Position numbers and translations under genes: made by a program | Shown: positions 53,819 to 64,000 of the stretch, in pieces | Layout: every line of letters begins with the position of its first letter | Numbering within the stretch: the stretch's first letter is position 1 | Origin: Galaxea fascicularis | Lineage: Eukaryota > Cnidaria > Anthozoa > Scleractinia > Euphylliidae | NCBI GenBank assembly: GCA_948470475.1 | Contig: OX419338.1 | Location: forward strand, 32,981,882-33,045,881 | DNA length: 64,000 nucleotides | Reading direction: 5' to 3' | The notes under the pieces: model-generated | The model's database searches: none | What the model was told of the DNA's origin: nothing | The model's input: the letters and a program-made list of their open reading frames with translations, nothing else

Positions 53819-56800
53819 TCAATCAATCATATCAAAGTTGACGTAGTCCTCATCATTGTAGTAATCAAGGTTGATGTAAATCTGTTTTGATGTAAACACA
53901 ATTAATAATGTGCACATGACAAAGTCGTAATAATGCAGAAATAAAGAACAACTACAAAACCCTTTATTTTCGTGGCGAATGTATTGGGAATAGCAAAACG
54001 CATGAGAATGTTTAAGATAGTTTTTGATCATAGCCCGAGTAAATTTTATAAGGTGACTAATTGCTGTCACATGGTAGCTGTAACGTAAAAGCTAAACACA
54101 AACCAAACAACGCACGCATTCACTCGGTTCTTTCAGTTTTTCCGCACCAGACACTACAGAGAGTAAAGGATGATGGTATTGGTTGTGTAGACACGGAACT
54201 GCTACAACTTGTTGAGGTGTACATGTGGGAAAGTTATTTTGGATAAAAAGACTGACATGCAAGGGAAAAAAAACAGTATTTGCCGTCGCCCGACTACCCG
54301 AGAGATCGCACAAGCTAGCCCTGGCACAGTTTCTGAATTGGGAAATTACAGCTTATCAACCTTCTCAGTTACCTTCTCGTCATCTATCAGTCGCTCCACT
54401 TCTGCACATATCCAGTGGAATGACGGGCGCTCTTCAGGTTTTTCCGACCAACATTCTGACATTATAGCATACCTAGAAATAGACCAAGAATGTCATTAAA
54501 ACACCAATACCAAACACTCCCTTCATCCATCCTGTTTTTGTTCCTTGGTTTGCGAAACAAAGCGAAAACTGCTGAAGAAGTACGTACAAGTGACTTACAG
54601 TTCCTCTGAAATATGGTTCGCGCGTGGCATACGATATCCTCTTTCCAACAAAGCTGCCACTTTCATTGCTTTTACACCGGGATATGGCGATTCACCTAAG
54701 AACATAAAAGCAGCACTGAGGTCGTGCAATTAACACACTATTTATTATTATTTACACTGAAGTAACAAGTGAGTAACAAATTTAAGTGAACTAAAAAGGA
54801 AATATTGCACCCAACCTGCATGCAGTTAGCTTAGGCTAGTCGAGGTGGGAGGTGAAGTGGACAAAAAGTAAACTAGTGATAATATTAATTTTACAGAGAG
54901 AACAGAGTTTGATACCCTACACGGTATAATTATTTGCTAAAGTAAAGGATGGTTTTCACTAGCGACGGAGTCGGAGTCGGAGTCGGAGTTGTAATCAGAA
55001 GCGTAGAGCGTTTTATGAACTAGTGAAAATCAAACCGAGGGAGTCGGAAGCAGAAGGCTATTCCGCTTATGACTCTGTCGCTATTTTGGTATCAATCTGT
55101 AATCGGAGAGCGTGAGAACAAGCATTGTGATTGCTTGGTTCTTCCGCTTCTGCTTCCGACTCCGACAACATAGGCCATGTCCACACTGATGCATTTTTGT
55201 TTGAATGCGTTTTCGATAGGTGTAAAAACGGATCGATTGATCTGCGTCCACACTGATACGGATGCCGTAGCGTTTTCAATACTTTCAACAGCGTTTTCAA
55301 AAGTATCCGTTTTCGATGAAAACGCTCAGCGTTTTCGAGCGTATCAGTGTGGACGGGAGGCCAAAACGCATACATATTAATGCGTTTTCAAACAAAAACG
55401 CATCAGTGTGGACATGGCCATAGTTTCCACTGGATCATAGGCAACGGAGTCGGAAGGAATTAAAATGGAAACGTTCTGATTCTTTCGACTCCCATTTCGT
55501 CGACCTTAAGACTCCGGTTACGACTCTGATCTTTGATTTTTACTAGGTCATAAGGGCCCTTACGACTCCGACTACAACTCCGACTCTGTCGTTAGTGATA
55601 ACCAGCCTTAACTAAATACGTTACAACCGTATTGAAGAGAATGGGTGTTGACATTGGAGTAGAGTGTCGACTTCAACACATCATCCTTATTAGAGAGAGT
55701 ATGGAATAGAAATCCACGAATGTTTTCTATGCAATTAAGATCAGGAAGCAATTTTCATATTTCGTAAAATTGAGAAAAACATCATTTACCAATTGTGAAT
55801 ACCTCCCACAAAACAATGCCATAGGACCACCTGTAATAGTAAGAAAAATAAAACCGATTTGGTCACTAGGCATGAATCAAAGTAGACTTGCTCCAAGTCG
55901 CCCTCGAGTCTATAATCAAAGTAAAACAGTGAAAACTCTCCTTGATCATGGCAACTGCTGTTAAAGATTGGTTGAAAAAAACAATAGACAAACATTATAA
56001 ACAGTGACACCTAGCCCTGAAACAATTGAGCTGCACCCTACGAAGATCGAATGAAATTATAGGTTTTAAAGAGGTGCACCCCTATCTTTTGGGTATCGTA
56101 AATGCCATGATTATGAAGTAACGAACCGTGTTAACCGCTACTGCATGAATTTTTTGATCGTGTATTGCGTTACCCTGAAAAATCCGTAATACATTTTTAA
56201 TAAAAACAGGCCCTCTTCCTTTCCAGATAAACAGTGAGAACTCTCGAAAAATTATTCGTCAGTTTCGTTGTTGTCTTTTTCTGAAGAATCCACAAACTTC
56301 GCTTTCATAAGAATCGCTCTATTAACTGACCTCTCTCGTTAACACAAGTAGACATTAGAAACAACCACAACGTACACCACCAATTTCAAACCAAACATTA
56401 GAATACTCCATCGAGGTTCAGTTACGTTTTGTAACATTTCCTATCAAAGGTATTCCATTACTTTTCAACTTTTTCGATTTCATAACTACTGCATCAAACA
56501 AGGTTAAACGTACACGTCAGTCATGGTACTGCATTCACCCTGAAAGAGAGATTCAGGGGGCATCCACTTGACGGGTAGTCGTGCCTTCAACAGAGAGCAA
56601 ATGAAGTTGGTGAATACGAAATTCGCATAAAAGTTAACAATAGTGAAATGAAGGAAGGTGAAAAAAAATTAACGAAAGAAACAAAGGGAAACAGACGGAT
56701 GGAGGGACAGACGGGCAGACAGACAGACACAGGCAGACAGACTGACAGGGAGACTGACAGACAGACTGACAAACTGACAGACAGACAGAATTAAAAAAAA

Positions 56801-62800: not shown

Positions 62801-64000
62801 CTCTTTCCAGGTTTAAGTCCAGACAAAATTAAAGTCGTGTTAGTTGTCTTGATACTCTGCGTATCCTGAGGATTATCCATTCTGGTGTAAGTCAAGTTAT
62901 ATGCCAATATGACGCCATTTTTGCGGTCTAATTTCCACGAAATTCGAATCGTATTTCCCTCTAACAGCTCAAGGAAGACTTCTGGTTTACCAGGAGCTAA
63001 ACAAAATAAATAAAACTCGGATCGAAAGATATTCAGCCACAGAAACTGACGAAAACAAGGGCAGTAAAGACATTTGCCAAGGAATCAACAACAAGGGCAT
63101 GTGTTTCGGTCAGCGCTGTTCAAGAAGAGGTCTTGTTTTATTGTGAGAGCTCTTTTAGGGGGGAGTTACAGGTGAATGCCTGGTTTTCCGTACATTTCAG
63201 CTCTTTTCGTTAACAATCTCACCAAGATTTCATTCAATTGCAAAAAATGCCTTCGTTAGGTTGGAGTCCTTCGCACAGTAAATGGGTGGACTAGATGATT
63301 TTTGGAATATTTGGAGGGAAGAAGAGTTGTCTGGGGAAAGGTTGATAATTATGGAAAATTGAAAAATATTGGATTTGAAGGTGGTTGAAAAAAAAACATA
63401 AATAATTAGTCTACAAAGGTCAGATAGTCCACCACCACAACAAGGTGCCCCTGACTCCGTTAGCGTACTAACTGATTTATTTGTATATACTTTTCTATAT
63501 TTATTTATTTCTTTTAATCTCAGTTGACCCCATTTTTCCAAACTTTCACCGCCCCCTACCCCCTTTCCTCGCCTCCCCTCCGCAAGCAATATCATCCTCT
63601 CCGTAATAGGTACTGGGAGCCAACCCTGGCCAACAACCCATTGATGTCTTTTTCAGAGACGAGCTTTAACAGGACTCTCGCTACAATGTTCAGCGAGTAT
63701 ATCCCATTTCTTAAATTAACTTAATTGTCGTTCCTAGGATTTGAGCTTAAAAGAAAACTACTGCCTAGACTCACTCACCAGATTCAAGCGTTTTTATGGT
63801 CAGCGAGCTAAAGTTTCCTTGCAAACCATTCTCTTCAATAGAGTAGATTTTAAAGGTGTACTTTTCGAAAGGTAACAAGTTTGTTACGGCGACTTGAGTA
63901 ACATTCAGACCCTCCATTTTGGGTACATAACCGATATGACCCCCACAACTTGTGTCACGGCACTTGTCTTTGCCCTCACATGGCTTCAGGCAGTGTACGT
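53819..64000 (-). CDS. A2: receptor tyrosine kinase with Eph-type FN3 ectodomain and FGFR/Tie-like kinase (5' end beyond window)
   Basis: Exons seen: 63779-64000 (partial), 62788-62996, about 62582-62717, 61374-61506, 60608-60660, 60348-60467, 59921-60187, 58844-58954, 57853-58040, 56927-57046, 56514-56584, 55790-55830, 54599-54695, 54373-54472, 53819-53881. Phases agree throughout. The first has [22 protein letters not shown] and [12 protein letters not shown], the Cys-bearing first FN3 domain of Eph receptors. The second and third form another FN3 domain ([46 protein letters not shown]). The membrane helix, juxtamembrane, kinase and tail follow. Key kinase residues are intact. No SAM domain. 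Upstream exons, probably including a ligand-binding domain, lie beyond 64000. Confidence 0.85.
54373..60187 (-). CDS. A2 tyrosine-kinase exons
   Basis: Eight exons correspond one to one to those of A1, with equal lengths except the first (267 against 273 nt). [27 protein letters not shown] and [10 protein letters not shown] are all kept. Differences include SELNVMKS for [16 protein letters not shown] for [17 protein letters not shown] changed to QGECSTMTD, and FTIGESPYPG for FTIGDSPYPG. Open frames in every exon indicate a functional kinase. Confidence 0.92.
54946..55609. mobile_element. TIR element (GGTTTTCAC ends), copy in A2, interrupted
   Basis: Same family and site as 12508-12848. It is interrupted at 55173-55419 by a second TIR element, so the two nested insertions can be ordered in time. 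Confidence 0.72.
55173..55419. mobile_element. 247-bp TIR element with 3-bp ATA target duplication, unique to A2
   Basis: The ends GGCCATGTCCACACTGATGC and its exact complement bound the insertion. ATA flanks both sides (55170-55172, 55420-55422), and copy 1 shows a single ATA in CAACATAGTTTTCAC near 12670. It is non-autonomous. A 3-bp target site fits PIF/Harbinger-type elements, but the superfamily is not proven. Confidence 0.85.
56694..56790. repeat. GACA-type tetranucleotide array, A2 intron
   Basis: This is the counterpart of the A1 array at the same position in the gene, with a different order of GACA, GACG and GACT units. Confidence 0.88.
59181..59849. mobile_element. 669-bp TIR element with 3-bp ACA target duplication, carrying a nested Penelope fragment
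   Basis: The ends GGCTACGTCCACACTAAGCC and its exact complement bound the insertion, flanked by ACA (59178-59180, 59850-59852). Copy 1 has the empty site GTCACAGTCAAGG near 16390. The ends resemble those of the 55173-55419 element (GGCCATGTCCACACT). Bases about 59300-59650 belong to a different element inserted within it. Confidence 0.85.
59300..59650 (-). mobile_element. Penelope-like element 3' fragment with hammerhead-like motif
   Basis: The minus strand encodes [20 protein letters not shown] followed by [13 protein letters not shown] and stop (about 59638-59514), the usual end of the GIY-YIG domain of Penelope-like elements. Downstream, CUGAAGA (59365-59359), a GGCTGG/CCAGCC hairpin and GAAA (59340-59337) form a hammerhead-like core, a known feature of these elements. 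Stems I and III are not convincing, so activity is doubtful. Confidence 0.75.
60772..60970. mobile_element. 199-bp TIR element unique to A2
   Basis: ATAGACCTTTTTAGCTTGTC at the left and its near complement at the right extend through TTTTGTTTTCCCAATGTAGA and a CACGTGAT-type arm end. The matching A1 intron (about 17320) lacks it. Confidence 0.85.
61374..61506 (-). CDS. A2 transmembrane exon
   Basis: It starts in phase 1 like its A1 counterpart and encodes [18 protein letters not shown], the helix [19 protein letters not shown] and basic CYRRR. It is two codons shorter than the A1 exon at the cytoplasmic end of the helix. Confidence 0.92.
61960..62009. repeat. (TA)n microsatellite
   Basis: A run of about 25 TA units in the intron between the FN3 and membrane exons, just outside the duplicated block. 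Confidence 0.95.
62582..64000 (-). CDS. A2 ectodomain exons: two Eph-like fibronectin III domains
   Basis: Exon 63779-64000 ends in phase 1. Its C..C......C.....CGG pattern before G-x-V-P and the YTFKI strand match the first FN3 domain of vertebrate Eph receptors. Exon 62788-62996 begins [20 protein letters not shown]. The third exon (62582-62717) is the least certain: its acceptor was chosen because it preserves phase into the membrane exon, but it inserts a stretch ([14 protein letters not shown]) unusual for an FN3 domain. Confidence 0.72.

Follow-up and report, generated by a model that had tools for sequence, protein, structure and literature searches.

A probable hybrid of an Eph-type ectodomain and a non-Eph tyrosine kinase in the coral Galaxea fascicularis, with signs of repeated re-pairing of the two halves

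The DNA analysed here (the window) is a stretch of 64,000 nucleotides from the stony coral Galaxea fascicularis (assembly GCA_948470475.1, contig OX419338.1, positions 32,981,882 to 33,045,881). At its right end lies a minus-strand gene, A2, which very probably encodes a hybrid receptor tyrosine kinase (RTK), in which an Eph-type ectodomain is joined to a kinase from outside the Eph family, with the two halves having been re-paired repeatedly in this group of receptors at a phase-1 intron between the second FN3 domain (FN3-2) and the transmembrane (TM) exon. The kinases of such hybrids separate cleanly from those of canonical Eph receptors while the ectodomains of the two interleave, and it is this discordance that argues for repeated re-pairing. 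The border is observed in DNA in the window, between A2 and a tandem paralogue, A1, and as a protein border in relatives.

The ectodomains and kinases of RTKs are usually viewed as having been paired in deep time and kept together thereafter; in living corals, by contrast, two unrelated kinases carry ectodomains that are up to 89% alike. If the reading is correct, domain exchange in RTKs can be observed at recent range, corals offer natural experiments on the contribution of the output half while the sensor hardly varies, and coral expression studies that use "ephrin receptor" annotations mix two signalling systems.

The A2 gene

A2 runs from 53,819 to beyond position 64,000, so that its 5' end, including any ligand-binding domain (LBD) exons of its own, falls past the window. 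Fifteen exons between 63,998 and 53,819 join into 617 residues with no internal stop; 14 of 14 introns are GT-AG with matching phases. The encoded order is Cys-bearing FN3-1, FN3-2, TM segment, juxtamembrane region, kinase with insert and DFG motif, and short tail:

63779..63998, minus: C-terminal part of the Eph-type Cys-bearing FN3-1, start beyond the window (exon model, PDB match, alignment)
62788..62996, minus: first exon of FN3-2 (exon model, Pfam)
62026..62086, minus: second exon of FN3-2, ending in phase 1 (exon model)
61507..62025, minus: intron between FN3-2 and TM, the proposed exchange intron; identity between A1 and A2 starts inside it, at 61,633 (exon model, DNA comparison)
61374..61506, minus: TM exon (exon model)
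60608..60660, minus: juxtamembrane exon 1 (exon model)
60348..60467, minus: juxtamembrane exon 2 (exon model)
59921..60187, minus: juxtamembrane region and kinase exon 1, with Gly loop and VAVK (exon model, motif)
58844..58954, minus: kinase exon 2 (exon model)
57853..58040, minus: kinase exon 3, containing the D-E insert (exon model, insert measurement)
56927..57046, minus: kinase exon 4 (exon model, motif)
56514..56584, minus: kinase exon 5 (exon model, motif)
55790..55830, minus: kinase exon 6 (exon model)
54599..54695, minus: kinase exon 7, with ESPYPG (exon model, motif)
54373..54472, minus: kinase exon 8 (exon model)
53819..53881, minus: tail exon of 20 residues plus the stop codon, containing YIN and YVN (exon model)

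Pfam finds two fn3 stretches and PK_Tyr_Ser-Thr (E 2.3e-89) in this protein. A Cys-bearing FN3-1 followed by FN3-2 is an Eph-family feature, and A2 has both, the former by its C-terminal part. Among ectodomains in the PDB, EphB2 (E 7.9e-16) and EphA4 (E 7.4e-15) match the FN3 pair, but FN3 arrays of receptor protein tyrosine phosphatases and titin give better scores (best 1.3e-18), and part of the match with Ephs is thus generic to FN3 domains. What points specifically to Ephs in the A2 ectodomain is its Cys pattern, together with the Y-x-P...GLxxTxV region as it lines up with coral Ephs. The windowed part of the ectodomain shows FN3 only and no Ig-type domain, the distal part being beyond the window.

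Other hallmarks of Ephs are missing. SAM is absent from the Pfam matches (25 of 26 families listed), and the kinase is followed only by the 20-residue last exon; the juxtamembrane motif of Ephs, Y(V/I)(D/E)Px(N/T)Y, was not found in the A2 model. A six-frame scan of the 64 kb with the pattern [VIM][KR]W[MT][APS]PE matched A1 and A2 only, with no Eph-type RWTAPEA loop.

Hybrid and canonical relatives

We took the best 120 of 6,584 matches from a protein search with A2, with 8,000 candidates scored, and picked from the best matches, by kinase similarity and loop motif, a set of 38 hybrids (P0001-P0033, P0035-P0039); P0034 and P0118 are apparently related and were left out of the count. A second search, with P0120 as the query, listed 105 matches, from which both comparison sets are drawn. 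The canonical set consists of 18 proteins with an Eph kinase from corals or close relatives (P0120-P0137), 17 of them with SAM, and the EphB3-type comparison set of 48 rows (P0138-P0185), which are from fish where named. The protein database is clustered at 90% identity, which hides close isoforms.

Apart from four, the hybrids have a named source, which is Acropora, Montipora, Porites, Stylophora, Pocillopora, Oculina, Orbicella, Actinia, Exaiptasia or Nematostella; the presence of P0032, P0035 and P0039 in sea anemones indicates that the first pairing of such an ectodomain with such a kinase may predate stony corals. In the precomputed Pfam column, Ephrin_lbd (PF01404) is found in 27/38 hybrids and SAM in none, and from these relatives we infer an LBD for A2 as well. 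A YxN tail is seen in 36 of the 38, one of the other two models having no tail and one a different end.

Two contigs from genomes other than that of A2 carry the junction. P0187 (554 residues, 1,896 bp contig, JGI) runs stop-free from the LBD interior through the cysteine-rich domain (CRD), FN3-1, FN3-2 and TM into a hybrid-type kinase, and P0190 (557 residues, 1,911 bp contig, Logan) runs from the LBD into a hybrid-type kinase without FN3-2. Because the homologous stretch of A2 is interrupted by introns, we read both as spliced, or partly spliced, transcripts; the source does not state their nature, and retrocopies would be the alternative.

The kinase is not of the Eph family

The A2 kinase shares 39.0% identity with fish EphB3 and 37.1-38.6% with four coral Eph kinases, which are themselves 57.0-57.9% identical to fish EphB3. 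Its identity is 47.5% with FGFR1, 49.1% with RET, 42.4% with TIE2, 39.7% with VEGFR2 and 42.9% with SRC, and reaches 52% with the anthozoan RTKs P0040 and P0057. In the PDB, the family whose kinases match A2 best is RET, behind a tandem EGFR construct.

For the kinase tree, 73 rows were chosen from 212 (33 hybrids, A1, A2, 11 coral Ephs, 4 fish EphB3, 17 other and 6 human kinases), leaving out 14 proteins with short kinase stretches. Branches starred in our trees are called supported here. Ephs form a single supported clade (100/97) with A2 outside it; hybrids join cnidarian RTKs (supported, 96/93), and these together unite with FGFR, RET, TIE and VEGFR (supported, 97/92). A1 and A2 stand beside five Porites rows (supported, 100/93). 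A tree forced to join the hybrids to the Ephs is 50 log units worse and is rejected by the approximately unbiased (AU) test (p-AU 9.7e-5).

Discrete characters divide the sets in the same manner. The D-E distance is 46-48 residues in 36/38 hybrids (two unmeasured) and 32 in 17/18 coral Ephs (one unmeasured) and 48/48 fish-type EphB3; Eph and EGFR are named as the RTK exceptions without a D-E insert in PMC8662651. The loop reads KWM[PA]PES in all 38 hybrids versus RWTAPEA in 17/18 coral and 48/48 fish-type Ephs. The Eph juxtamembrane motif is present in 10/18 coral and 47/48 fish-type Ephs and in no hybrid, and the SAM motif is seen in 0/38 hybrids versus 17/18 coral Ephs.

Placement of A2 among Eph kinases was thus ruled out by identity, tree and AU test. 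Placements inside three other families, each represented by one human row, were ruled out by the tree: FGFR1 groups with VEGFR2 (supported, 100/95), RET sits with FGFR1 and VEGFR2 (supported, 98/86), and A2 does not join TIE2 either, to which it is 42.4% identical. By sequence, the A2 kinase appears to belong to an anthozoan family beside cnidarian RTKs, near FGFR/RET/TIE/VEGFR and in no human family.

A preliminary description of this DNA, made from the letters alone, had recognised in A2 a Cys-containing first FN3 domain and a second one, a non-Eph kinase with an insert, no Eph loop and no SAM, and pY-x-N-type tail motifs; Pfam, the alignment with coral Ephs, the exon 3 insert, the six-frame scan and the YIN and YVN of the last exon bear it out on all these points. 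The kinase tree that it proposed puts A2 outside the Eph clade. Its label of FGFR/RET/Tie-like stands as far as nearness to that group is concerned, but not as membership in any human family.

Ectodomains interleave across the two kinase types

The ectodomain tree has 41 rows, of which 24 are hybrid, 14 canonical and 3 from fish. On it the hybrids are interleaved with canonical Ephs, with eight changes of kinase type, six of them forced by supported branches, and hybrids as a single clade are rejected (p-AU 9e-89). The LBD tree (39 rows: 23 hybrid, 12 canonical, 3 fish and the LBD of a third gene in the window) has eight switches forced by supported branches, with a bootstrap 5-95% range of 8-8, and likewise rejects hybrids as one clade (p-AU 2e-109).

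Among 140 hybrid-canonical pairs (14 x 10) compared for ectodomain and kinase identity, five illustrate the discordance; in each of them except the first, both members come from a single named species:

P0003 and P0120: ectodomain 88.0%, kinase 40.9%
P0019 and P0122: ectodomain 89.3% (the highest of the 140), kinase 37.2%
P0015 and P0121: ectodomain 82.9%, kinase 40.9%
P0012 and P0126: ectodomain 83.4%, kinase 37.5%
P0021 and P0129: ectodomain 67.7%, kinase 39.8%

The best single split of identity falls at the FN3-2/TM border in four of the five, where 84-89% drops to about 35%; in P0021-P0129 it falls after FN3-1, P0021 being without FN3-2. The same hybrid junction recurs in Montipora and Acropora. 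Same-species pairs probably lie on one chromosome, as equal-sized contigs are listed for them.

Nearest relatives differ between the LBD-CRD and FN3 parts of P0004, when set against P0122, and likewise of P0005/P0006 in the LBD and FN3 trees; on these sequences, exchange seems to have occurred within the ectodomain as well.

A tandem paralogue with a different ectodomain

The window contains a second copy of the TM-kinase half of A2, on the same strand:

10148..18011, minus: A1, the tandem paralogue, spanning TM to stop in 12 exons with GT-AG borders kept and no internal stop (DNA comparison, exon model)
18012..18151, minus: part of the A1 intron before the TM exon, alike A2 in DNA (DNA comparison)
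18420..18536, minus: A1 EGF_CA exon, phase 1-1, nearest recognised in-phase exon upstream of the TM exon (Pfam, phase)
35636..38969, minus: PAN, EGF and fibrinogen-C-like exons whose phase fits that of the EGF_CA exon; perhaps more of the A1 ectodomain, perhaps a separate gene, hence uncertain (Pfam, phase)

From TM to stop, across introns as well as exons, A1 and A2 align in blocks of 85-97% DNA identity (91.6% for the largest block) with some insertions, and lesser blocks of the 3' flank extend to about 7.5 kb and 49.8 kb, respectively. At the other end, identity stops at 18,151 in A1 and 61,633 in A2, within the intron preceding the TM exon. Upstream of this breakpoint, A2 has FN3 exons and A1 has the EGF_CA exon, of matching phase. 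In 18,152-53,800, 41 ectodomain queries found no LBD or FN3 exon for A1, the one match below E 0.1 (E 0.007) being on the opposite strand. A long (AT)n run lies at about 61,960-62,010, within the A2 intron in which identity stops.

Kinase and tail codons of A1 and A2 differ at dN 0.022 versus dS 0.065 (nonsynonymous and synonymous divergence), which suggests that the kinase sequences are under constraint; the A1 stop codon is three codons beyond that of A2. The first 150 codons (TM and juxtamembrane) show the opposite, dN 0.084 versus dS 0.031, over few sites and without a test.

The complete A1 ectodomain, PAN-EGF-FReD-EGF_CA if all the in-phase exons belong to it, is uncertain. In a search with this ectodomain part, 7 of 954 candidates matched, and the Pfam column marks none of the 7 as an RTK; one of the proteins compared, P0213, has a FReD region like that of the 35636-38969 exons and a secreted look by eye. 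When the terminal exon that a separate gene would need was sought by pattern, none was recognised.

Weighing the hybrid reading

Several points count against the hybrid reading or limit it. A2 is known from genomic exons alone, and its own LBD lies beyond the window; most of the hybrid relatives are gene models annotated in arrays, a setting in which chimeras do arise. The last residues of P0187 leave the kinase at an A2 exon border, as with a retained intron or a frameshift, and P0190 ends early within the kinase. The identity of A2 with SRC is not below that with TIE2 or VEGFR2, so the description of the kinase as FGFR/RET-like depends on the tree and the insert and not on identity alone; the branch that sets the hybrids apart is modestly supported (91/56), and the kinase may have been acquired more than once. 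YxN also occurs in 10/18 coral Eph tails, mostly within the SAM region, and the link from the tail to an output draws on general background, in which pYxN is the Grb2 consensus site. Long branches meet in the ectodomain and LBD trees (a program warning), LBD and FN3 trees conflict for some rows, and a quick FN3-only tree needs five changes, four of them forced, fewer than the LBD tree; the count of switches is therefore approximate. It also hinges on annotation models, and the canonical Ephs in these trees are those of corals and fish, with sea-anemone canonical Ephs left out.

Of the competing explanations, the one that survives best concerns function, and we consider it unlikely: hybrids might bind a non-ephrin ligand, serve as decoys or act mainly as adhesion molecules. 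The LBD of the third gene, which shares just 24-46% identity with the other 32 rows of the alignment, and the lack of Pfam fn3 in P0020 and P0023 would agree with such a role. It is opposed by the invariance of fifteen LBD and CRD columns (nine Cys, plus a Trp) across 33/33 aligned rows, by the PDB matches of the same LBD exon at E 0.001, which are all to Eph receptors (36/36 distinct sequences), and by the presence of all four scored kinase motifs in 30 of the 35 hybrids long enough for scoring.

It is improbable that the switching is transcriptional and not evolutionary, with combinatorial or trans-splicing in one array pairing shared ectodomain exons with either kinase. Many relatives bear isoform names, the window itself has a tandem layout and phase-1 borders, and P0190 is without FN3-2. 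Against this, identical ectodomains were seen in 0/140 hybrid-canonical pairs (maximum 89.3%), although clustering at 90% could hide identical-exon cases; moreover, the breakpoint between A1 and A2 is genomic.

Still less credible is an annotation artefact in which gene prediction, working on tandem arrays, fused the Eph ectodomain exons of one gene with kinase exons from the gene next to it. Four species do list a hybrid and a canonical protein on equal-sized contigs, and most relatives are models, but same-species paired ectodomains differ by 11-32% and hence are different exons, the A2 exons are ordered and in phase, a search of the 64 kb found no Eph kinase loop, the junction is carried by two intronless contigs, and it recurs in Montipora and Acropora.

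The remaining explanation, a fast-evolved SAM-less Eph branch with a kinase diverged in place, is implied by PMC6485061, where anthozoan clades are treated as Eph kinases and truncated models are offered as a possible cause of missing SAM domains, but it is very improbable, being refuted by the kinase tree and its AU test if these hold, with the long D-E insert, the KWM(P/A)PES loop and the absent juxtamembrane motif co-occurring, ectodomains 83-89% alike on both kinases being hard to produce this way, and 36/38 tails ending in their own YxN motif, unlike truncated Ephs.

Relation to known receptors and previous work

With Eph receptors (P0121, fish EphB3) the hybrids have in common Ephrin_lbd, Ephrin_CRD, Cys-bearing FN3-1 and FN3-2, the coral ectodomains being interleaved; they differ by a kinase of another group, a long D-E insert, their own YxN tail and the lack of SAM and of the Eph juxtamembrane motif. 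With the split-kinase RTKs (FGFR, RET, TIE, VEGFR) A2 has in common the range of kinase identity, the D-E insert and a KWM-PES-type loop, but the part of its ectodomain in the window has FN3 where those have Ig or cadherin-like domains, and its kinase groups beside cnidarian RTKs and within none of the human families. An anthozoan RTK expansion (among P0040-P0069, annotated as FGFR-like, Tie-like, Cad96Ca-like and others) is the group whose kinases join the hybrids (supported, 96/93). A D-E distance of 44-47 residues, near that of hybrids, is found in 78/80 of the rows P0040-P0119; the expansion differs by Ig or other FN3 ectodomains, and P0040-P0045 have the loop KWTAYE(S/A) in 4/6, the other two being unmatched by the pattern.

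Krishnan et al. 2019 (PMC6485061) found that cnidarian kinases fall into three clades, two being anthozoan, but cnidarian LBDs into one, and attribute the discordance to lineage-specific duplication and domain-specific selective pressure. The anthozoan Eph-kinase clades are possibly the same proteins as our hybrids. The outgroup of that kinase tree is closely related non-metazoan RTKs, other metazoan RTKs not being mentioned as rows in the sections covered, and those sections do not recognise the hybrid kinase as non-Eph. The passages covered of PMC6993872 and PMC8662651 do not describe the pairing, PMC9897584 does not mention ephrin, those of PMC12549020 deal with other matters, and the pairing was not found reported among the matches listed in the literature searched, which had subscription journals mostly outside it. 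The preliminary description had known of no described family with this pairing; that statement needs qualifying, as 21/38 relatives are named ephrin type-A or -B receptors in public databases and the discordance of clades had been reported. The different ectodomain of A1 and the repeated exchange are additions to that description.

A possible mechanism

Exchange of the halves might proceed by unequal recombination, gene conversion or duplication in linked arrays, with the intron before TM as the crossover point. In the resulting receptor, ephrins on adjacent cells would cluster the hybrid, whose kinase would trans-phosphorylate both its own domain and the Y-x-N tail conserved at the C terminus; recruitment of Grb2-type SH2 adaptors may then give a Ras/MAPK-like output in place of the output linked to the juxtamembrane region and SAM in Ephs. 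Both ephrin binding and this output are predictions, under which one kind of cell-contact sensor would have two intracellular readouts. Ligands are plausible given the large cnidarian ephrin expansions, with 55 such ephrins having a TM region, reported in PMC6485061.

A broader proposition is evenly balanced in our judgement. Stony corals would possess a recombining two-part receptor system, made of linked arrays of ectodomains and two unrelated TM-kinase cassettes, with the pre-TM intron as a repeated exchange point at which Eph-type and non-Eph (A1) sensors are re-plugged onto alternative outputs; such a system might serve cell sorting, allorecognition or the growth of the colony.

Other features of the window

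The third gene, at the left end of the window, is represented by one exon:

545..1205, minus: Ephrin_lbd and Ephrin_CRD exon; later exons, including any for a kinase, would fall beyond position 1 (Pfam, PDB, LBD tree)

In the LBD tree it groups with the hybrids P0020, P0023 and P0025 (supported, 100/97), forming with them a divergent LBD subclade. P0020 and P0023 have an Ephrin_rec_like stretch in place of Pfam fn3, and P0025 has no fn3 in the precomputed column.

Inverted copies at 4969-5159 and 50810-51047, 90-97% identical, lie next to the duplicated block. Open reading frames at 43052-44256 and 51284-51853, both on the minus strand, look by eye like endonuclease and reverse transcriptase pieces of a retrotransposon without long terminal repeats. 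Two tRNA-Thr genes, at 20355-20427 (minus) and 35452-35527 (plus), have the anticodons AGT and GGT; Rfam gave one tRNA. An 80-base stretch overlapping the tRNA at 20355-20427 is repeated at 49,602-49,680 with 86% identity.

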